IMG/VR virus record: IMGVR_UViG_3300022744_000028
Coordinates: 1 to 64,000 of that record
Direction: 5' to 3' (one strand)
Length of the DNA: 64,000 nt
From: a virus
In this document: positions 1 to 37,466 of the stretch, piece by piece
Layout: the number at the start of each line of letters is the position of its first letter
Numbering within the stretch: position 1 is the first letter of the stretch
Notes under the pieces: model-generated
What the model was told of the DNA's origin: nothing
What the model saw: only the letters and a program-made list of their open reading frames with translations
Databases searched by the model: none
Made by a program: the position numbers and the translations under genes

Positions 1-478
1 CTATGCGGTAGAGGTGTTCTCCGCCAAACGTCCACAGCTCTGGGTGATCTAGACTCGACTTAAAGAATTTCTCCAAGCTGCTCTGCCCATACAATCTACT
101 AAAGAAGAATAGGTTGTATGTTGGAAGATGTGGTGATATTAATGGCCAGACATTGCTGTAATAATTTACAGTCTCATGCAACGCTGTGCGAACATTATTT
201 ACAGACTTGAATGCCCTGAACTTCTTCAGCGTGTATTGTGCTGTATAACATCTCAATACTCCCTCTCCAAAGCTACTGCCATTCATAGTAAAGAATTGCA
301 TCGGCTCACCCTTATAGCATAGCACGTTACACATTGTGTATTTTTCAGCTGGACCTATCTTCAGTCCAGAGTATGACTTATCTTCTTGTGCTGTTGCTCT
401 CTGAATGTAACTCCACGTCTCGTTGGGTTCATCAGCAAACACGTGTGTGAAATCGCCACGCTCTACTTCGATAATCAT
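1..478 (-). CDS. Hypothetical protein, 3' end cut off by the window edge
   Basis: The first 159 residues are visible; the gene continues beyond base 1. Its ATG overlaps the stop of the radical SAM gene in an ATGA junction (475-478), so the two are translationally coupled. The protein begins MIIEVERGDFTHVF and is rich in aromatic residues, with no signal peptide and no motif I recognise. Placement after a radical SAM protein and beside glycosyl- and sulfotransferase-like genes suggests a role in the same modification island, but that is context only. Confidence 0.6.
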   Translation of the reverse strand, partial: MIIEVERGDFTHVFADEPNETWSYIQRATAQEDKSYSGLKIGPAEKYTMCNVLCYKGEPMQFFTMNGSSFGEGVLRCYTAQYTLKKFRAFKSVNNVRTALHETVNYYSNVWPLISPHLPTYNLFFFSRLYGQSSLEKFFKSSLDHPELWTFGGEHLYRI

Positions 479-1512
479 AGATCGCTCTTCATCCAATCAG
501 CATAATTCTTTTGTGGAATAGTTACGCCATCCACCATCCAAAAATGCATTATTTTTCCACTACAAGATTTATAGCAAGGGGCATTTGTTACATCTTCTGG
601 CCTGTCCCATGCCTGCTTGATACCATGGAACAACGGCGTATCGATCGCGTCCTTAATGCCAATACTATCTAGATTTGGCGTGTGGATCTTATCAACAGCT
701 GCCTTGAATGCAGGTTTCGTCTCATATCCTGATCCATACCAGCAGCACGGATGTACACGTCCTCGTGCATCTATGTAAATCTCTTTTCTCTTTTCAGCAG
801 CACAAATAGGCTTATCCAAATTCACCAGCAAATCGCTGACATTAAATTCAGGCGACGTTGTTGGGTATATTTGCTTCATCGTTCCCGTCTTCTGATCTTT
901 GTATGGGAATGGCTTCATTTTATGTTCGAACCGTGAGCTAATCTTAACAGCAAATTTATAGAACCCCATAGTCTTGGCCAGCTCCTCTGCCTCCTCGACC
1001 TGATGTTCGTTATGCATGAATGGAATGAATGCCCACACTACCTGCGCGCCAGTAGATATTGCAGCCTTTGCATTCTTCATTACGTTAGAGAAATTGACAT
1101 CAGCTCTGTATATGTGGTTTGTATCTTCCATTCCGTCGATGTGGAAGATGATGTAGCTGTTCGGTCTGTCTATGTAGAATTTGCCTAACTGCTTCCAGAA
1201 CGTCGTTGTTCTTATTCCACCATTGGTGTCGAACGTAAGTCCTATATTTGGATTGCATTCGATGATATATTCATGTATGCGTATACAATCCTTAGCCACA
1301 GCAGGATCGCCAAAGTTTCCGCAGAATTTAATTTTCTTCAACCCTGCAATAAAGGTAGTATCAAAATATCGCTTGAACTGCTCCAAAGTTATTTCAGCAG
1401 GGTTGTCTTCGACCGTAGAATTGTTGGTGCGCGAGCATTGAGGACACCGAGCGTTACATTTATTAGTAAGCTCGACGTGCATCGATTCAATTCCATCACG
1501 ATAAATATACAT
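475..1512 (-). CDS. Radical SAM protein with SPASM-like C-terminus
   Basis: 345 residues. The iron-sulfur motif CNARCPQC (CxxxCxxC, residues 19-26) is the radical SAM signature that binds the 4Fe-4S cluster and cleaves S-adenosylmethionine. A glycine-rich GNFGDP motif follows near residue 65. A C-terminal cysteine group (CAAEKRK, HPCCWYG, CYKSC) looks like a SPASM or twitch domain carrying extra clusters. The family includes peptide- and carbohydrate-modifying enzymes; the substrate here is unknown. It is too long and too cysteine-rich at the C-terminus to be QueE. A GAGGA ribosome site lies just before ATG 1512. It is divergent from the glycosyltransferase at 1535, leaving a 22 bp gap. Confidence 0.85.
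   Translation of the reverse strand: MYIYRDGIESMHVELTNKCNARCPQCSRTNNSTVEDNPAEITLEQFKRYFDTTFIAGLKKIKFCGNFGDPAVAKDCIRIHEYIIECNPNIGLTFDTNGGIRTTTFWKQLGKFYIDRPNSYIIFHIDGMEDTNHIYRADVNFSNVMKNAKAAISTGAQVVWAFIPFMHNEHQVEEAEELAKTMGFYKFAVKISSRFEHKMKPFPYKDQKTGTMKQIYPTTSPEFNVSDLLVNLDKPICAAEKRKEIYIDARGRVHPCCWYGSGYETKPAFKAAVDKIHTPNLDSIGIKDAIDTPLFHGIKQAWDRPEDVTNAPCYKSCSGKIMHFWMVDGVTIPQKNYADWMKSDL
1500..1507 (+). promoter_or_regulatory. Candidate T4-type late promoter GATAAATA
   Basis: GATAAATA matches the T4 late -10 box TATAAATA at seven of eight positions and lies 27 bp before the start of the plus-strand glycosyltransferase gene. It sits inside the first codons of the divergent radical SAM gene. T4 late promoters need no -35 box. 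A single short match could be chance. Confidence 0.35.
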
Positions 1513-1534: not shown

Positions 1535-2209
1535 ATGAAAAATTGTTATGTCTGCCTGAAGTGGGGCCAGAAGTATTCGGCCGATTACGTCAATAAACTA
1601 GCATCGATGATTCGTCGATGGGGCAATCCACATACCCCTATTTATTGCTACACGGATGATCCAACTGGTATCGACCAATCGATTCACATCCTTCCAATTG
1701 AACCAGAATATGACTACGAAAAGTGGTGGTTCAAGATACCACTGCTCAATCATCCAACATTAAAGCAGTTCGATACTAAGATTCTATTTGACTTGGATGT
1801 GGTTATTCATGGCGACATTGAGCGTTTGTTTGAAAAGGCATCCGACAATCTGACAATCTGCATGGCTTATTGGAAGGACCCATCGATACTCAAAGACATA
1901 CAAGAGCGCAATACGATGTACAACTCTAGTGTGATGATATGGAAAGATGCATCATACATATACGAATACTTCATCCAAGACCCAGAAAAATACATGGCTG
2001 TGTATAAGGGAGTCGACAGGTTTCTTTGGCATGAGGGCATCAAGGTCGACACACTTCCAATGGGAATAGTATACTCATATCGCAAGGGTGCAAATTTGTG
2101 TGACCAAGTTCAAGCCAAGTACCGACCAACATATGATGTTTGTTTATTTCATGGCCAAACGAAACAGGTCGATGTAGTGGATGAGTGGGTGGTGAAGCTA
2201 TGGCAATAA
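1535..2209 (+). CDS. Glycosyltransferase-like protein (GT-A fold, DxD motif)
   Basis: 224 residues. The segment ILFDLDVVIHGDIERLF (around residues 87-103) carries the DxD nucleotide-sugar/metal motif in the form seen in GT8-like enzymes. The N-terminus (NCYVCLKWGQKYSADYVNKL) is also typical of small phage glycosyltransferases. It would transfer a sugar from a nucleotide-sugar donor; the acceptor (fibre, surface glycan or DNA) is unknown. It is first of four plus-strand genes, with its end overlapping the APS-kinase-like gene. It resembles the protein at 3238-3936 in layout, so the two may be distant paralogues. Confidence 0.75.
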   Translation: MKNCYVCLKWGQKYSADYVNKLASMIRRWGNPHTPIYCYTDDPTGIDQSIHILPIEPEYDYEKWWFKIPLLNHPTLKQFDTKILFDLDVVIHGDIERLFEKASDNLTICMAYWKDPSILKDIQERNTMYNSSVMIWKDASYIYEYFIQDPEKYMAVYKGVDRFLWHEGIKVDTLPMGIVYSYRKGANLCDQVQAKYRPTYDVCLFHGQTKQVDVVDEWVVKLWQ

Positions 2210-2622
2210 AAATATTGATTATGGGTCTTCCTGGAGCTGGAAAAACTACACTAGCCGCGGCATTGAACGAGCAATTGTGTGACCATAGGTATACTACCAC
2301 GTGGTTGAATGCTGACATCATACGCAAGCAATATGATGATTGGGATTTCAGCGATGAAGGCCGCATAAGACAGTCGGTCCGTATGCATAACCTAGCTGAG
2401 CAAGCAATTACTGATTACGTGATTGCTGACTTTGTGGCAGCGCTGCCAATCCAAAGAGATAATTTCAAGGCCGACTACACAGTATGGGTCGACACAATTG
2501 ACCAGAGCATACACGAAGATACTAACAAAGCATTCGTTAAGCCGAAGGCAGTCGATTTCCATATCACTGAGAAAAATGCCGTGCATTGGGCTCAGTATAT
2601 TTTTAACCACATCATGGAGTAA
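2200..2622 (+). CDS. cysC: Adenylylsulfate (APS) kinase-like protein
   Basis: 140 residues from ATG 2200; an in-frame GTG at 2185 is a poorer start because GGTGAAG just before 2200 is a good ribosome site. The P-loop GLPGAGKTT is followed by LNADIIRKQ and FSDEGRIRQSVRM, matching the APS-kinase pattern GDNxR ... FSxxDRxENIRR. This family phosphorylates APS to PAPS, the sulfate donor. The RDxKGLYxKAR segment of cellular enzymes is replaced by shorter sequence, so activity is not assured. The neighbouring sulfotransferase strongly supports a PAPS role. The start overlaps the previous gene by 10 bp. Confidence 0.75.
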   Translation: MAIKILIMGLPGAGKTTLAAALNEQLCDHRYTTTWLNADIIRKQYDDWDFSDEGRIRQSVRMHNLAEQAITDYVIADFVAALPIQRDNFKADYTVWVDTIDQSIHEDTNKAFVKPKAVDFHITEKNAVHWAQYIFNHIME

Positions 2623-2627
2623 GAACA

Positions 2628-3236
2628 ATGTCAGTACTATCGCTCGGCATACTATATGTACACATTCCAAAGACTGGCGGAAGTAGCGTCGCTCAGTGGA
2701 TGATTAAGAATACACCAGTAACCGAACACTTTAAGATGAACCATCCGAATATTGGCACGCTTAGAGCGTCATGTGATGGCCGTGTTGATCATGCATTTAC
2801 AGTAGTGCGTAATCCTTGGGCAAGAGCAGTTAGCTTTTACACATACCACAAAAAACGCTTCGAGACGGGCATATCGACGGTTGACGGCTACACTGATTTT
2901 CCTTCATTCGATGACTTCATATTCAACTACATCGATGGAGACCTAAACGACAAATCGTATGCTGTGAATGGACGACAAGTCAATCTAGATTATTGGTTTA
3001 GAATGTCAACACCACAAGTAGACTGGATAGACGATTCTGTCGATACGATACTGAGGACTGAAAGCTTGGATAGTGATTTTAAAACTGTCCAAGATATGTT
3101 TGGTTGCTATGCTCCATTGGGTATGGTCAGACAGTCATCCACCGACGACTACAAAACATACTATACAACCGATACGAAAAACAAAGTTACAACGTACTAC
3201 CAAAAAGACATAGACACATTTAAATATACATTTTAA
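2628..3236 (+). CDS. Sulfotransferase family protein
   Basis: 202 residues. The N-terminal YVHIPKTGGSSVAQW (residues about 10-24) is the 5'-phosphosulfate binding loop of the Sulfotransfer_2 class. VRNPWARAVSFYTYH (about residues 61-75) is the 3'-phosphate binding motif. It would move a sulfate group from PAPS to a sugar hydroxyl or tyrosine. It follows the APS-kinase-like gene by five bases, so donor synthesis and transfer are encoded together. There is no signal peptide or membrane anchor, so a cytoplasmic acceptor is likely. The acceptor is unknown; fibre protein or a nucleotide-linked glycan are possible. Confidence 0.82.
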   Translation: MSVLSLGILYVHIPKTGGSSVAQWMIKNTPVTEHFKMNHPNIGTLRASCDGRVDHAFTVVRNPWARAVSFYTYHKKRFETGISTVDGYTDFPSFDDFIFNYIDGDLNDKSYAVNGRQVNLDYWFRMSTPQVDWIDDSVDTILRTESLDSDFKTVQDMFGCYAPLGMVRQSSTDDYKTYYTTDTKNKVTTYYQKDIDTFKYTF

Positions 3237-3237
3237 T

Positions 3238-3936
3238 ATGACGCCGATGTATGTAATCTGCACTGGACCAAACTATACCCCAGAGCATGTAAGAAGATTT
3301 GAGCGACAGCTCAAAGATCACGTCAATATTGATTTCAAAATACACTGCTATACTTCATACGACAGGTCATCATATGATGCGTCGATCGAAGTAATACCTA
3401 TCGAAAATGATGATGGGAGACGTCAGTGGTATAAGATGGATGTGTTTAGGATGGCACCAAAAGGCGATGTCGTCTTTGTATCAGATATAGACTGGACGTT
3501 CGTTGGTGATGTAACTGATATATTCAATCAGGAAGTAAAATCAAACGAGTTGATAGCTCCATATCGCTGGTGGACTCGCTATAAAGGAAAAGGCTTTACC
3601 ATTAACGGTGGCCTCTATAAGTTCATCGGGGGCGATCATCAATATGTCCCTGATACGTTTTACGATCGTCCGCAATACTGGATGCAGCATTATATTCTCG
3701 ACCGACGATTGGCGCATCCCCCTGTTAACGGCGAGCAAAATTTCGTAGACGAAACGATTAGAAAGAATACTGGTATATTAAAGTACTTCGAGCCCCGAGA
3801 TGCAATAGGCAGAATGCCCAGCGATCACCAACATGCCGTTGAATATAATGAATTGTATTTACTGAACTATGGTCACGACTACTTTCATGTAGGTGAATTC
3901 AACGATCGCATTAGAATGATTCAGAGTGTTTTGTAA
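3238..3936 (+). CDS. Glycosyltransferase-like protein with DxD-type motif
   Basis: 232 residues. VVFVSDIDWTFVGDVTDIF (around residues 79-97) resembles the metal-binding strand of GT-A enzymes, with DIDW in the DxD position. INGGLYKFIGG lies where such enzymes bind the acceptor. It starts two bases after the sulfotransferase stop, which places it in the same transcript. Its end overlaps the convergent QueC-like gene by 16 bp. The sugar donor and acceptor are unknown. Similar in plan to the product of 1535-2209 but clearly divergent. Confidence 0.6.
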   Translation: MTPMYVICTGPNYTPEHVRRFERQLKDHVNIDFKIHCYTSYDRSSYDASIEVIPIENDDGRRQWYKMDVFRMAPKGDVVFVSDIDWTFVGDVTDIFNQEVKSNELIAPYRWWTRYKGKGFTINGGLYKFIGGDHQYVPDTFYDRPQYWMQHYILDRRLAHPPVNGEQNFVDETIRKNTGILKYFEPRDAIGRMPSDHQHAVEYNELYLLNYGHDYFHVGEFNDRIRMIQSVL

Positions 3937-4529
3937 GTAGTGGGGTCTAGCTTATCAGCTGTTTCAAATGCTAGTTTGCGTTCCTTACAGTTGGTGCACG
4001 TACCACAATGTGTTGGTATGTTCTTGGCGCACGAACGTGTGAGTGGAATCCACTTCTCATACCCCAACTGGTAATAAAGATCGACGATTTGCGCCTTAGA
4101 CATATTCAAGAAGGGCATTGATACTAATCCTAGTTCTGCGACCTTATCCAACACTGCTTTCTTGTGTTCTGGATCTGCTAGTCTCCCATATACAACCTCA
4201 TTGATACCAAGATACAGCACGTCGATGTCCGGTACTAGCTTGATTGCAGTATGATATGTGTCTTCTCGTAGTCTGTTAACGTATACGGAATTTGTCGGCG
4301 ACTCAATGATAAAGTGGTTATCGAAATCCATTTCATCCGCCATCTGCTGAGCATAGTAGTGATAGTGCTTTACGCCATCGATGAATGGATCATCAAACGG
4401 TGTCTTTTGTGTAAATGCATACACATTGTCCTTGCCATATTTGTCAATGCACAACAGTAGCAATAGAGTCGACTCTAAACCACTTGACCAGAATACTCCG
4501 ACCTTTTTAGCGTCAATTAGATTGACCAT
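3921..4529 (-). CDS. queC: QueC-like PP-loop ATPase (7-cyano-7-deazaguanine synthase family)
   Basis: 202 residues from ATG 4529, which overlaps the end of the oxygenase-like gene. The PP-loop reads FWSSGLESTLLLL where QueC has SGGxDS. The C-terminal SCAKNIPTHCGTCTNCKER matches the QueC zinc site (SCx..CGxCxxCxxR). QueC converts 7-carboxy-7-deazaguanine to preQ0, used for queuosine or for phage DNA deazaguanine modification. No FolE, QueD, QueE or DNA transglycosylase gene is in this window, and the SSGLES loop is also like asparagine-synthetase-type PP-loops. The exact reaction is therefore uncertain. Confidence 0.7.
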   Translation of the reverse strand: MVNLIDAKKVGVFWSSGLESTLLLLLCIDKYGKDNVYAFTQKTPFDDPFIDGVKHYHYYAQQMADEMDFDNHFIIESPTNSVYVNRLREDTYHTAIKLVPDIDVLYLGINEVVYGRLADPEHKKAVLDKVAELGLVSMPFLNMSKAQIVDLYYQLGYEKWIPLTRSCAKNIPTHCGTCTNCKERKLAFETADKLDPTTYKTL

Positions 4530-5181
4530 TGTATGGGTCCTTACCAAATATTTCCCTTATACCGTTCGGATCGATGCCTAATTCATCTGCCATGTCTGTC
4601 CATAGCATGGGATGAATAATGTAAGCCCAGTTTAATCTATTGCAATTAGTATGGGCTGCGTGCCATAACGGAGCTCCCTCTACGACATCATAGTATCCTA
4701 CTTTACAGCTCCATCCCTTCTTATCGGGCATGATTACTAGCTCGCCAGTTTGAGGATGTATGTACCTAAAATCACCTTCGCCGGTTTCGCTATACGTAAA
4801 CAAGATATTATAACCAGGTGCATTTGCGTTGTTATGCCATCCGATATATCCACCAGGAGGGTAGTACATCTTCAAAGCATTACTACGGCTACCAGTAAAA
4901 CTCATCAGTGCTTTGTCAAGCTGCTGCACACGATTGAGGTATATGTTTGTATCATACACACCAACATCTTTGAAATCTGCACCATAACATTCTTCTGGAT
5001 ACCCAACATTGTCTGGCCTTGCCTTCATCAACTCAAGATACTCATTGCTAACAGCATACTGAGTATCTAAGTTCTTTGGCTTTGGAGTTATTGTGTCTTG
5101 TAGTGACTGGCTAAAGAACCAATCGCTAAAGTCATACAGCTGATCAGATAATTGTTTGGGAAGCTTGTTAGCGAATATCAT
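4513..5181 (-). CDS. Probable 2-oxoglutarate/Fe(II)-type oxygenase
   Basis: 222 residues. The middle of the protein reads GGYIGWHNNANAPGYNILFTY and later PLWHAAHTNCNRLNWAY. A WHxN pair followed by a distal histidine and arginine is what a jelly-roll 2OG-Fe(II) dioxygenase would show (HxD/N ... H ... R). I assign the fold from these motifs only. It would hydroxylate a protein, sugar or nucleotide. It sits between the QueC-like and glycosyltransferase-like genes, with a stop overlapping the former and a start four bases into the latter. Confidence 0.5.
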   Translation of the reverse strand: MIFANKLPKQLSDQLYDFSDWFFSQSLQDTITPKPKNLDTQYAVSNEYLELMKARPDNVGYPEECYGADFKDVGVYDTNIYLNRVQQLDKALMSFTGSRSNALKMYYPPGGYIGWHNNANAPGYNILFTYSETGEGDFRYIHPQTGELVIMPDKKGWSCKVGYYDVVEGAPLWHAAHTNCNRLNWAYIIHPMLWTDMADELGIDPNGIREIFGKDPYNGQSN

Positions 5182-7294: not shown

Positions 7295-8098
7295 TTACAT
7301 TGAAAATAGCTGAGTGCCATTTACATCATATACTTTTAAAATAGTACGACCATCATAGGTCGATTTGAATGCAGCAACGTTTACACCATCAATACCAGTA
7401 TTGCCTACAGTAGTAATGCCACTGGCAGTGATGTATCCATTTACTTGAAGGTTAGCTGTCGCTATGACGAACTTAGTGCCGTCATATTGCATATATCGTG
7501 TTGCGGTGTTGCCGAAGTACAATATACCTTGAGTATTGTTTGCTGCGTTATATAATGTAACGTTAGCTGTAGCAACAACGTTACCATTTAATGTTGTTGT
7601 CGTGCCAACATACAACGCTTGAGAAACGTTAGCGCTTCCTGACACAGTTAATGCAGCATCAGCCGTTGCAGTGTTGATACCAACGCGGCCTGTAGATACG
7701 ACTGTAAGCGACGTGCCTTTGACATATAGATTGGAAGCGACGTTAGCAGTCGTTCCGTTGATTGTCAGGGTAGTAGTATTAGCAAGAGTAGCAGTTGCTT
7801 GTAGGTTAAGGTATGTGGTTGCAGCGCTTAGGTTGGCACCAGTAAAATGTGCGTTCGATGAAATGATGAGGTTGGCGGACGAAGTAACACCACCGCCTCT
7901 CAACTCTCCAACTGCAACCATCGTCTGAGCTGCAAAGATGCCATTAACGAAGGCGTTTGCGCTATTCTGTCCACCAACTGAGTTAGCTGCTGTCGTAAGG
8001 ACAACAGTAGACATAGCATCAGCGATCTGATTCGTTTTATCTACCCAAGACTGAAACGTGTCAGATGTTGGGTTTACGTTAGCTATTAGTAGAGGCAT
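7295..8098 (-). CDS. Tail fibre-like structural protein
   Basis: 267 residues. The N-terminus NVNPTSDTFQSWVDKTNQIADAMS matches the start of many T4-superfamily fibre proteins. The remainder is T-, N- and A-rich with short beta-repeat units (TANVASNLYVKG, ANVSQALYVGTT, TANVTLYN), suggesting a trimeric fibrous shaft. It ends in DGRTILKVYDVNGTQLFSM, a likely small tip. It overlaps the 72-residue coiled-coil gene upstream by 20 bp, and lies downstream of the baseplate operon as fibre genes do. Confidence 0.7.
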   Translation of the reverse strand: MPLLIANVNPTSDTFQSWVDKTNQIADAMSTVVLTTAANSVGGQNSANAFVNGIFAAQTMVAVGELRGGGVTSSANLIISSNAHFTGANLSAATTYLNLQATATLANTTTLTINGTTANVASNLYVKGTSLTVVSTGRVGINTATADAALTVSGSANVSQALYVGTTTTLNGNVVATANVTLYNAANNTQGILYFGNTATRYMQYDGTKFVIATANLQVNGYITASGITTVGNTGIDGVNVAAFKSTYDGRTILKVYDVNGTQLFSM

Positions 8099-8297
8099 GT
8101 TTAATCAATTGTCCTAATAATTGTTTTATTTCGCTGATGTCATTCTTCAAATCGCTGACTTCATCAGCGAGAGCGTCGATCGTGCGTGACTTATCTCGCT
8201 GTTGTTTGTAGAGCATGTACGCGGTAGTATTTGTATTTATTACCGCGTGACTCTCTGTATCACGCGCAAAGTTAGTATCGGTAGTTTGTAATATCAT
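8079..8297 (-). CDS. Small coiled-coil protein
   Basis: 72 residues. Residues about 38-65 (RTIDALADEVSDLKNDISEI) show a heptad pattern of I/L/V and charged residues, so a short coiled coil is likely. It overlaps the 2184-residue structural gene by four bases (ATGA) and the next fibre gene by 20 bp, so it is co-translated with virion proteins. It may be a connector or assembly factor; no family recognised. Confidence 0.65.
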   Translation of the reverse strand: MILQTTDTNFARDTESHAVINTNTTAYMLYKQQRDKSRTIDALADEVSDLKNDISEIKQLLGQLIKHASTNS

Positions 8298-11200
8298 ACC
8301 GATACTGCGAGTGCACGAACGTCATTGACTGTTGGTACCAAGTATGAGTATGGAGATCTCAATACAATCTTGATAGCCAAATACTTATACGTATCATATG
8401 CCGCACCAGTTAGACCGTGGTAGCGTACAATGTAGCTATTACGGCAGTATTTAAACGCAGCTTTCGGCTGAGTGACTTTCTCAATTGTACAGCCAGTCGA
8501 TGTGAATGAAACATCTGTCGTTGTTGTGATTGTGCTGCTGTTAGCAGAAGCTACGCGCAGCATATCATAGTCAGTCAGTGTATTTGATTTGACGACCTTG
8601 ATGAAATCGCCAGCAGCCAAGTACGTATCGAACGCTGTACCAATACCCGTGATTGTGGTGTTAGTGTATGTTTGAGCTACACCACTTAGTTGCAACGAAG
8701 GTGCAGTTTGTGGGAATGTGTACTCATACTCACGATAGTCTTGATCATTCAACGAATCACTGTACATATATGGAGATGTTGATTGCTCAAGCAATGTCCA
8801 ATCCTTATCCTCGAACAGTTCGCCATCGCTGAAGTTCAACACCTTAGCATAAACGTCGATGTTGGTACCTGTTGGCTTGTATGCTGTCAAGAACACTTTA
8901 ACGTCTTCCGCATCCATACCTTCTGTCAGCGCAAGACGCTTAGAGATATACTTGCTCAATGCGCTACCATAACGTGTTGTTTCGTTTGTGGTAGAGTCGT
9001 TGATCAAGTTGCGTGTAGTGATTACGCTGATAGGGTTGACGTCGAGTACGGGAGATGTGTCTGTTGAAGACGTGCTGTAGCTCATCGATACAGAGAATGA
9101 CTTATTGACAACAGAACCAACGATCTCGTTACTACGACTCTTAATCATAGCGCTATCATTGAACGTCAATTTGTTCAACATTCCAAGTTCATACAACTTC
9201 GTATCAGTAGCACCTGTATTTTGCAGTGTGAATGTCGACGTCAACGACAACGATGTTCCAGGAGTCACGATCGTGCTGAAGAATGGTTTGAAGAAGTTGA
9301 CACTAATGTTATTGATACCAGTAACTTCAGCCGTAGCTTGTGTAGTATCGCCAACAATCGTTCCACGATATGTGCTATTCGAAGTAAAGAACTTGAATGT
9401 GTCGTTTGCGGACGAGGAGTTGTTGATGTAGATGATGTTGTTGCCATAATCGTATGTGTCAACAGTACCTGCTACGACTTTTTGGATCGTAGCTTGAACA
9501 GTAGCAGACGTGGTAGTCGATGCAGACTTGTTCAATGTGATTGTAGACGAGTTAGCAGCCAATACCTTTGCTACCTGGAATACAGGAGAGATACGGTATT
9601 GCTGTGTGCTTGTCGTGTTGCCGACGATCGGAGCATCGATAATCATCATCGAGCTGTTTGTAACAGATACAACTTGACGGATTTCACCGTTTGCCGAGCT
9701 ACCGAGCTTGATGAAGCTGCCGTTGCTGTAATCTGTATTGAACGATGTTGTTTGGCCAGCAGCGTTCGTTACGATTGTCGAGCTGACAGTAACATTACCA
9801 GTACTTACTGTTTGGTTATTACCATAGATGATCAATACGTTATCGCCAGCAGCAAGCGACGATGTCATGTTGGTGCTAGTACCAATCACGTTAGTCGCCG
9901 TTGATGTCATAAGCGTTGTATTCAGATAGTTGCTTGGGTGGAGCTGAGCAATAGCTTCGCCACCACGAACAGTACCAGATGCAGCATTGATTGATAAGAA
10001 TTCATAGTCGCCGTTGTTGAGAACAGCAGTACCATTAGTGCTTTGGAATACAGCACGTTTGATAGTGAACTTCAAATCCTCGTCTTGAACAGGTGTCCAT
10101 ACAGAACCAGACGTCGAATAGAACAGAGTTCCAAGACCCCAGTTTTGGTTGACTGTCAAGCTAGGATTTGTCAAGTCTTTGTAACCAACGCGAGCAGTGT
10201 AGATGCGGTATTCTGGTGTGTTAGCATCAGGATACAATACGATAGCGTAATCGCTATTTGCTCTTAGGTATACTGGAGTTACAAATTCAAACGTTGTAGC
10301 AGCCGTTGCGTTGTTACTGACTGATACTTGACTGCTTGTCTTGTATACACGTGAGAACGGAACAATAACAGATGCCGGAACACCATTCACTGTTTCACGG
10401 AGCTCTAGTGTAACACCTTGTGAAACATCTTTTGCCTTGAAGAACACATCAACGCTTGTAACAAAAATGCCATCAGTTTGATCGCCAGTCGACTGCACCT
10501 TGAATGTCTGTGCTAGTGGGTCTGGGTTAGGTAACTGAACATGGAAATCAGTATGATCGTTGCGATAGTATGTTGCAGACAAGTAGTTTGTTGCAGAGAA
10601 ACCGCTTCCGCCAGCCACGTCGATAGTCTTAGTAGAGATCGATAGATTTGTTCTGTTTCCAGAGAATGCATATGCAGTAAACTTACCGAGGCCACGCGAC
10701 GTTGCAGTAGCTTCTGATACGACATTATCAACGTCCATCAATACAACAGAGCGCTCACCGACGAAGTATGTCGACTTTGGAAGGTCGATATAGCCAGCAA
10801 TCACGCCAGAACTATTAGCCACTAACGGAGAACCGATTGTTCCTGTTGCGACGAATGATGTTGGTAGCAATTGTGATAATGTCAGATCAACTTGAGCAGG
10901 AGCTGCTCTGTCGGAGATCTGCACGCCATCAAAGTATACCCAGTGACGTGCGCCTGGACGTAGGCCGGTGCTCACGAAATGGATGCGTTGATCACGAATG
11001 TATTGTTGCAGCTCCAAACTATTCAAGATATCAACTGTCGTTGCGTTTGAAGTTGTAACGCCACCAGACAATGTTACCTTAGTATCATTGAGAGCAGTGT
11101 TGACGTCTTGTCTCCATGTTTGAGTCAATCCAGATTGGCTGATCAAATATGAACTTCCAGCATTAACAGAGCCGAGTACGTTGGTGTTAACTTTCAATTG

Positions 11201-36589: not shown

Positions 36590-36982
36590 ATGCAATACTT
36601 CACATACTTATGGATTGATAAATCGCGAAAAATGTTTTATGTTGGTGTACATGAAGGACATATCAACGATAGCTACATTTCATCGAGCAGATGGTTCAAC
36701 GGCGAATATCAATATCGACCTAATGATTTTAAGCGTAGGGTTCTTAAACTCTTTAACGACAGAGCCTCAGCAACAAAGGAAGAGTCTCGATTGCTTGCTC
36801 TAATTAAAGAGGAAGAGTATGGCAGCAGGTACTACAATCTTAAAACCGGTCGACCTAAAGGCACACCAGCATCCAACAAGGGCAAGCCAATGTCCCCAGA
36901 ACAGCGCGAAAAGCTTAGCAAGGCTAAGCTAGGAAAGCCATCTGTGAGGAAAGGCATTCCTAATAAAAATAAAGCTAGTTGA
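36590..36982 (+). CDS. GIY-YIG-like homing endonuclease with NUMOD3 motif
   Basis: 130 residues, behind TTGGAGGATAAAA. The N-terminus reads FTYLWIDKSRKMFYVGVHEG, in the place of the GIY...YVG core, followed by SYISSSRWF. The C-terminal part has the NUMOD3-type DNA contact KGTPASNKGKPMSPEQREKL. The family cuts DNA at a specific site to spread its own gene. The gene is plus strand among minus-strand neighbours, and its last three codons (GCT AGT TGA) form part of the tmRNA terminator stem read from the other strand, so it abuts the tmRNA directly. Confidence 0.7.
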   Translation: MQYFTYLWIDKSRKMFYVGVHEGHINDSYISSSRWFNGEYQYRPNDFKRRVLKLFNDRASATKEESRLLALIKEEEYGSRYYNLKTGRPKGTPASNKGKPMSPEQREKLSKAKLGKPSVRKGIPNKNKAS

Positions 36983-37005
36983 TTCTGTTTCCAAGTTCAA
37001 CTAGC
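36974..37005 (-). terminator. Intrinsic terminator of the tmRNA transcript
   Basis: On the minus strand GCTAGTTGA pairs with TCAACTAGC (nine pairs, 14-base loop) and is followed by TTTATTTTTATT. It lies 18 bases after the tag stop codon. CTAGCA/TGCTAG (37038-37033 with 37006-37001) could form the P5 helix and would share a few bases with it. Confidence 0.75.
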
Positions 37006-37277
37006 AAAACTCATGCAGTGCAATTAAGCAGCTGCTAGGAATAACTCATCGTTTGCAGTTATTGATTTTGCTTGATTTACGGTCATCGCCTACCGTGTTG
37101 CCGTCTCTACTATCTACCCCTGTCGAAACCAAGTGCACCCCCATCAAAAACACACCAAGTTAGTATTCAGATACATTGAGCTATCTAACTACGTCCTAAT
37201 CCAATGTTCTTAGGTATGCTTTTGGTGGAAGTGGCGGGATTCGAACCCGCGTCCAGAAGTCCTTCGCTTTGAAGGGA
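37001..37277 (-). ncRNA. ssrA: Circularly permuted two-piece tmRNA (ssrA)
   Basis: Read on the minus strand, the acceptor piece comes first: TGGACGCGGGTTCGAATCCC then GCCACTTCCACCA, a T-arm (GCGGG/CCCGC) with encoded CCA at 37223. After an 80-base spacer the coding piece begins at 37142 with GGGGGTGCACTTGGTTTCGA then CAGGGG, the tmRNA 5' signature. The two ends form a seven-pair acceptor stem, GGGGGTG with CACTTCC, including the G3-U70 wobble that alanyl-tRNA synthetase requires. A tag frame follows. Possible PK1 stem: ACGGT/ACCGT (37094-37090 with 37081-37077 approximately). The order acceptor-spacer-coding is that of permuted tmRNAs of alphaproteobacteria, some betaproteobacteria and some cyanobacteria. 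The 5' limit of the acceptor piece is uncertain. tmRNA with SmpB rescues stalled ribosomes. Confidence 0.9.
37024..37056 (-). other. tmRNA tag-peptide reading frame
   Basis: Codons GCA AAC GAT GAG TTA TTC CTA then GCA GCT GCT TAA encode ANDELFLAAA and stop. With the alanine carried by the tmRNA the appended tag would be A-ANDELFLAAA. It keeps the ANDE start and AA end used by SspB/ClpX-type proteolysis. Resume codon GCA is preceded by CAATAACT. Confidence 0.9.
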
Positions 37278-37466
37278 TTACAACAATTCCTCGAGCTTCT
37301 CCAATCTAGGAATTTTCTTTTTTTCCTTTTTGCGGGAGTAGCCACAAGCTCCACATTTACCATAATCACCAACAACATCACGATCGCAACGGCCGCACCA
37401 CATGCTTTTGAGGCCGTCCTTGCGAGCAGCCATTCCGCTGCGTCTATTTGATTTTGTTAGGATCAT
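37278..37466 (-). CDS. Small zinc-ribbon protein, 62 residues
   Basis: Contains MWCGRCDRDVVGDYGKCGAC, a CxxC-x10-CxxC zinc ribbon at residues about 22-41, then a very basic lysine stretch (SRKKEKKKIPRLEKLEELL). An internal ATG at residue 12 is another possible start. It ends immediately before the tmRNA acceptor piece and starts nine bases after the upstream zinc-ribbon gene, so the three could share a transcript. RNA or DNA binding is plausible but not shown. Confidence 0.6.
   Translation of the reverse strand: MILTKSNRRSGMAARKDGLKSMWCGRCDRDVVGDYGKCGACGYSRKKEKKKIPRLEKLEELL

Follow-up and report, generated by a model that had tools for sequence, protein, structure and literature searches.

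A putative sulfation cassette built around a lid-less APS-kinase-like protein in a T4-like phage

A candidate cassette in a glycan-decoration island

The stretch of phage DNA analysed here (64,000 nucleotides, bases 1-64000 of a virus record of 71,707 bases in total; the window) probably carries an exchangeable sulfation cassette, in which a kinase converts adenosine 5'-phosphosulfate (APS) to PAPS and a sulfotransferase (ST) sulfates an acceptor. We give this reading a probability of about 0.6, and we infer the reactions, the acceptor and the source of APS. The cassette would lie within an island of glycan-decorating genes in a T4-like myovirus; T4-like genes in the window include those for a baseplate wedge, a tail-lysozyme hub, a tail tube, a single-strand DNA-binding protein and a helicase loader. 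A lid-less APS kinase would phosphorylate the 3'-OH of APS to yield PAPS, and the adjacent ST would transfer sulfate from PAPS to an acceptor that is most likely a glycan made by the flanking glycosyltransferases. The kinase of most relatives is partnered by an NMNAT-like nucleotidyltransferase (NTase), which probably handles APS. As the NTase is missing from the window record, APS would be supplied by the host or by phage DNA outside the record. A role of the kinase family and the NTase in sulfate activation would be the simplest account of all the contexts in which they occur. If true, phages would use a PAPS-making kinase of their own to help sulfate glycans or surfaces, a kind of phage modification that is little explored.

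Near the left end of the window, four plus-strand open reading frames lie head to tail with almost no spacing, and the flanking genes on both sides run in the opposite direction:

475-1512, minus strand: radical SAM protein flanking the run (PF04055, 43.3 against a cut-off of 29.5 bits)
1535-2209, plus strand: GT1, glycosyltransferase-like protein of 224 aa, first in the run (phrog_1962, 1.5e-11)
2200-2622, plus strand: lid-less APS-kinase-like protein of 140 aa (PF01583, 41.0 against 21.1 bits)
2628-3236, plus strand: ST, Sulfotransfer_2-family sulfotransferase of 202 aa (PF03567, 28.5 against 22 bits; phrog_3347, 2.3e-18)
3238-3936, plus strand: GT2, glycosyltransferase-like protein of 232 aa, end of the run (phrog_1962, 6.7e-11)
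3921-4547, minus strand: QueC-like protein flanking the run (PF06508, 36.4 against 22 bits)
4513-5181, minus strand: possible 2OG-Fe(II) oxygenase, part of the island context (weak match to phrog_81 only, E 0.088)

The common strand, the near-zero spacing and the family matches confirm the four-gene run of the original prediction. The two glycosyltransferases named there both match PHROG family 1962, but neither GT1 nor GT2 matched a Pfam glycosyltransferase family in a Pfam scan. The start of the kinase was taken as the ATG at 2200, the mechanical reading frame beginning at 2185, and the ST begins 5 bases past the kinase end. A second IMG/VR record (L005) encodes a kinase and an ST that are 100% identical to those of the window, and an identical GT2.

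The G+C content of SAR11 bacteria is near 30%. That of the window phage is 44.7%, and it is probably not a phage of SAR11. The window also carries a permuted tmRNA (36933-37315, minus strand), with the tag ANDELFLAAA given by ARAGORN and with matches to the Rfam models RF04321 (permuted tmRNA, 144.6 against 47 bits) and beta_tmRNA (139.6 against 84); it may serve as a pointer to the host group.

The kinase is lid-less and belongs to a distinct family

Both parts of the APS kinase pattern described in the original prediction, the P-loop GLPGAGKT and FSDEGR, are present in the window kinase. Its match to Pfam APS_kinase exceeds the gathering cut-off and extends over profile positions 3-93 of 152 only. 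Against the NCBIfam model apsK (TIGR00455), it scored 38.5 bits, well below the equivalog cut-off of 138.7. The structure predicted from 45 input sequences had a mean pLDDT of 97.3. In the VIA fold comparison, each of the top 30 rows (Z 16.0-19.1) was an APS kinase or contained a domain of that type, a fungal ATP sulfurylase taking rows 1 and 3; the next family was gluconokinase (Z 14.9). APS kinases also came first when the PDB was searched with the profile of the kinase family. As judged from the predicted model, the fold of the window kinase is that of an APS kinase.

In an alignment with E. coli CysC, the window kinase shares the P-loop, D39, R42, F50, R55, R61, F78 and R86, and has Q at position 58, where CysC has N. 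The substrate lid (RDxKGLYxxARxGExxxFTG in CysC) is deleted, its place being taken by a short loop that ends in DTNK. We take R92, F101, R106, N109, K171 and F184 to be the residues that bind APS in human PAPSS1. On this presumed map, R92, F101 and R106 are kept in the window kinase, N109 is replaced by Q, and K171 is deleted, while the presumed equivalent of F184 is H, although mostly F in relatives.

For the comparison with viral relatives, we used the best 80 of 108 matches; the window and two phage records were added, and 36 clusters resulted at 85% identity. Across these clusters, the family motif reads approximately [ND]DWDFSDEGRxRQ, and the conservation of the family indicates that the window kinase is more than a chance finding. 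By its sequence, the window kinase is a member of a distinct family common to phages and SAR11 bacteria. The membership of this family, the loss of the lid and the usual company of the NTase were all overlooked by the earlier reader.

In the SAR11 genome G580, a variant kinase with a DDYDFS motif (L199, 7667-8098, minus strand) lies in a glycan island, and a fused copy occurs elsewhere in the genome. Two Stenotrophomonas phages, Bhz60 (L002) and DLP_6 (L003), are cultured and laboratory-tractable carriers of a fused kinase-NTase; in Bhz60 the fusion adjoins a NADAR-domain gene, and in DLP_6 it lies near genes for a Ser/Thr phosphatase and an Fe(II) oxygenase.

The window kinase departs from the near-invariant consensus of its family by P81A and R104I, and has H instead of the usual F105. 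The loss of these consensus residues and of the lid, and the score below the apsK cut-off, count against the cassette. The substitutions, along with the absence of the NTase from the record, would also be expected of a decaying, inactive copy. We regard decay as very improbable: every position that is invariant in the family is retained, the reading frame is intact, and L008, which bears a fused NTase, has H105 as well.

The original prediction that kinase and ST together could make PAPS is partly supported: it is weakened by the missed apsK cut-off and the lost lid, and the formation of PAPS from sulfate is impossible for the pair alone. A sulfate adenylyltransferase encoded elsewhere, which the original prediction left to be checked, did not come to light: neither the NTase nor any other source of APS was found in the 71,707-base record.

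Sulfotransferases in the vicinity of the kinase

The sulfotransferase assignment held: the window ST passes the PF03567 cut-off, matches PHROG 3347 ('Galactose-3-O-sulfotransferase') and has both PAPS-type motifs by eye. These are HIPKTGGSS and VVRNPWARAVS, which we take to resemble the two PAPS-binding motifs. No relative of this ST was found by tblastn among 50,697 phage records, and ST-centred viral scans with single proteins returned no contigs beyond those known.

In 8 of the 36 viral clusters (window/L005, L008, L009, L011, L015, L046, L048 and L072), a Pfam-supported ST was present no more than 8 kb from the kinase; none was seen within that distance in the other 28. In L008, the ST starts 6 bases past a fused kinase-NTase. 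Control loci around the T4-like single-strand DNA-binding gene had an ST in 1 case out of 80, and those around phage glycosyltransferases in 3 out of 20, two of which were near-copies. Thus, STs are enriched at the kinase as compared with the core gene (p = 3e-4), but kinase loci are not richer in STs than glycan islands (p = 0.73); in these counts, the home-made ST models were partly trained on proteins of the kinase set, and many control loci were short. Two further candidates (L136, 8727-9635; L046, 2490-3128) had no Pfam match and were excluded from the counts, although the one in L046 has ST-like motifs by eye and is possibly a divergent sulfotransferase. The view that the kinase is unrelated to sulfation, based on STs only in window/L005 and L015/L016, proved to be an artefact of a narrow motif and was overturned with a wider motif and Pfam.

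Apparent exchange of decorating enzymes in related phages

Two related phages (L185 and L186) share with the window the radical SAM protein (78% and 73% identity, respectively), GT1 (77% and 72%) and GT2 (70% and 66%), and they have also kept the possible 2OG-Fe(II) oxygenase gene. Between GT1 and GT2, in the place taken by kinase and ST in the window, both encode a Methyltransf_24 protein (64.9 and 60.4 against 26.3 bits). Neither a kinase nor an NTase was found in these records (105 and 235 kb). One of the two has an ST of 35% identity elsewhere, and in the other no ST was detected with PF03567. A similar exchange is seen in L015, where a kinase lies between two glycosyltransferases, L311, which has neither, and L313, which has a different gene there; all three have an ST in the island. 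Judging from such comparisons, decorating enzymes look like modules that are exchanged, with kinase and ST in one slot in the window.

Such traffic could also mean that the kinase and the ST travel independently of each other in a glycan island with rapid exchange, the ST depending wholly on host PAPS. The equal rate of STs at glycosyltransferases and at the kinase fits this explanation, as do the related phages that keep STs without a kinase (G582, L311-L313) and the free swapping of methyltransferases, kinases and STs. These observations, and the 28 loci that have no ST nearby, count against the cassette. However, an ST is directly adjacent also in L008 and in the SAR11 locus L087, and in haloarchaea an ST lies beside a pairing of APS kinase and NTase. 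We consider coincidence quite unlikely. The sulfation proposed in the original prediction gains from the joint occupation of one slot by kinase and ST, and from the kinase family or its NTase lying beside STs in phages, in a SAR11 island (L087) and on haloarchaeal and Microvirga plasmids, but it loses some ground to the STs without a kinase in related phages.

An NTase accompanies the kinase in most viral relatives

The viral kinases occur in two forms, one of about 140 aa and one of about 243-285 aa with a C-terminal NTase bearing the motifs GRWQPWHxGH and ISATKIR. At loci with the short form, the NTase is the next or next-but-one gene in 15 of the 36 representatives. Altogether, 29 of the 37 kinase-bearing viral records have the NTase, which was not found in the other 8, among them the record of the window and that of its twin.

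The best sequence matches of the NTase are NMN adenylyltransferases. An identity with these enzymes was rejected, since every score was under the curated cut-offs; the NTase of L193, for instance, scored 20.0 against 181.2 bits with TIGR01527 and 25.8 against 127 with NF002243. NTase parts did not match ATP sulfurylase PF01747, and scans gave CTP_transf_like only. In a second structure comparison, the rows were taken up by the kinase half. The role of the NTase is the weakest link of the proposal: it may be an ATP-sulfurylase-type enzyme outside that sequence family. Searches of an open-access library yielded no relevant paper on this NTase or on a phage pairing of APS kinase and ST.

T4-like cassettes often encode a small protein between kinase and NTase; this protein forms a cluster found in 10 of the 36 representatives, and the one member tested matched DUF2061 (46.0 against 23.1 bits). 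In Microvirga, CysN (L217, 9758-11347; L222, 4624-6240) has a C-terminal DUF2061 domain. This membrane domain is thereby tied to sulfate activation; in marine phages it is encoded as a free-standing protein between the kinase and the NTase.

Kinase and NTase in SAR11 bacteria

Among the best 80 of 320 kinase matches in genomes, all were Pelagibacterales by title. The NTase motif was present in 77 of these 80 loci, in 65 of them in the next gene, and was sometimes fused. Frequent neighbours were genes that we recognised by sequence as presumably dmdA and dimethylglycine-dehydrogenase-like genes. In the glycan island of L087, an ST lies 9 bases ahead of a fused kinase-NTase. In a set of 398 genomes spread evenly over the phylum, the kinase-NTase module occurred in only 2; in 12 others only the N-terminal part was matched, and these look like ordinary APS kinases.

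The module was detected in 82 of 147 Pelagibacteraceae genomes, PF01747 in 5, and CysD in 9 at E 0.001 (7 above the cut-off). Neither PF01747 nor CysD was found in 77 of the 82 module-bearing genomes. The argument that SAR11 has no APS source, and that its kinase is therefore not an APS kinase, is weakened, as a module that makes its own APS fits equally well. An ST (PF13469) was found in 64 of the 147 genomes; the kinase was present in 42 of these 64 and in 17 of the 83 ST-negative genomes (p = 3.5e-8, with kinship and genome completeness uncontrolled, and with the 59 kinase-bearing genomes read by hand from search rows).

The NTase without the kinase (E 1e-20) was found in 23 of the 147 genomes, 22 of which were examined. 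In 16 of the 22, a membrane-protein gene and then aprB come after the NTase (apr genes being called by motif); in the other six the NTase lies at the dmdA locus (three), beside a CADD gene with no apr in view (one) or elsewhere (two). In L193, both aprA (895.9 against 641.75) and aprB (188.6 against 135.65) score above their cut-offs; the membrane protein between the NTase (3596-3976) and apr is weakly QmoC-like. At the loci L193-L196, L201-L206, L208-L212 and L214, the NTase forms a row with aprBA, a membrane-protein gene and a member of the CADD family.

In one published study, Candidatus Pelagibacter ubique is described as having AprBA and as lacking sat and cysDNCHIJ (PMC5069961). An NTase in the aprBA row is a possible answer to the missing sat in SAR11, and, with this small NTase beside aprBA in many relatives, the gap becomes testable.

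The same NTase on haloarchaeal and Microvirga plasmids

A plasmid search with the NTase gave 10 records, nine haloarchaeal and one from Microvirga. On all eight annotated haloarchaeal plasmids, a gene named cysC has the NTase as its C-terminal portion, and an annotated sulfotransferase lies just upstream of it; the reading frames of the ninth, unannotated plasmid are similar. The kinase half has the lid, and both examples tested passed the apsK cut-off (154.7 and 160.3 against 138.7). The ST of the haloarchaeal locus L218, where the fusion lies at 7500-8357, passes Pfam and is of the Sulfotransfer_3/1 type. The Microvirga cluster comprises an ST, a lid-less kinase-NTase fusion, a CysD-type protein (PF01507) and CysN with the C-terminal DUF2061; its NTase motifs look degenerate in the presence of cysD and cysN in the same cluster (one case only).

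These plasmids bear directly on another explanation, in which kinase and NTase make a product other than PAPS, either a cofactor (NAD, FAD or folate-linked) or another 3'-phosphonucleotide donor, and the ST is unrelated. The similarity of the NTase to NMN adenylyltransferases would suit it, and so would its SAR11 neighbours, a CADD-family folate-related gene and genes recognised as dmdA, as well as the NADAR gene next to the phage fusion, the differences from CysC in the lid and in one APS-site residue, and the many viral kinase loci (28/36) where no ST was seen within 8 kb. The CDP-phosphoramidate kinase of Campylobacter, reportedly an APS-kinase-like enzyme with another 3'-phosphonucleotide product, would be a precedent. 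Nevertheless, haloarchaea have this NTase fused to a full APS kinase next to STs, in Microvirga it shares a cluster with cysD and cysN, and in SAR11 it accompanies aprBA. We consider a non-PAPS product unlikely, if worth keeping in mind.

Returning to sulfate activation, a broader proposal is that the NTase represents a third sulfate-activating lineage beside Sat and CysDN, of the ATP/ADP sulfurylase type and about 120 aa long. Together with the lid-less kinase, it would form a minimal PAPS unit feeding STs in SAR11, haloarchaea and marine phages, and it would provide the APS step beside AprBA; phages would carry either the whole unit or a plug-in of kinase and ST. We hold this proposal tentatively, at somewhat short of an even chance. 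If the NTase activates sulfate, it would be a new kind of enzyme in a highly abundant group of marine bacteria.

Comparison with known systems

Like the APS kinase CysC (PF01583, TIGR00455), the window kinase has the P-loop kinase fold, GxxGxGK, FS, R55 and R61, and its score is above the Pfam cut-off. In contrast to CysC, its lid is deleted, N is replaced by Q at position 58, it scores below the apsK cut-off, and the usual partner of its family is the NMNAT-like NTase rather than Sat or CysDN. The window ST resembles Sulfotransfer_2 and PHROG 3347 proteins in family score and in both PAPS-type motifs, but it is divergent, with no tblastn relative in the phage records searched. The Campylobacter CDP-phosphoramidate kinase is likewise said to be APS-kinase-like and to work with a nucleotidyltransferase in capsule decoration, although reportedly with no sulfate, no ST and a nucleotidyltransferase of another family.

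Fused relatives of the window kinase have the order of animal bifunctional PAPS synthase, a kinase followed by an adenylyltransferase-type domain, and would likewise lead towards PAPS if our reading is right. However, their second domain is short, NMNAT-like and does not match PF01747, and the window copy is single-domain. The cysC-NTase fusion of haloarchaeal plasmids differs from the phage proteins in its full, lidded APS kinase above the apsK cut-off and in an ST of the Sulfotransfer_3/1 type, but it has in common with them the same NTase family, an APS kinase domain and an adjacent ST.
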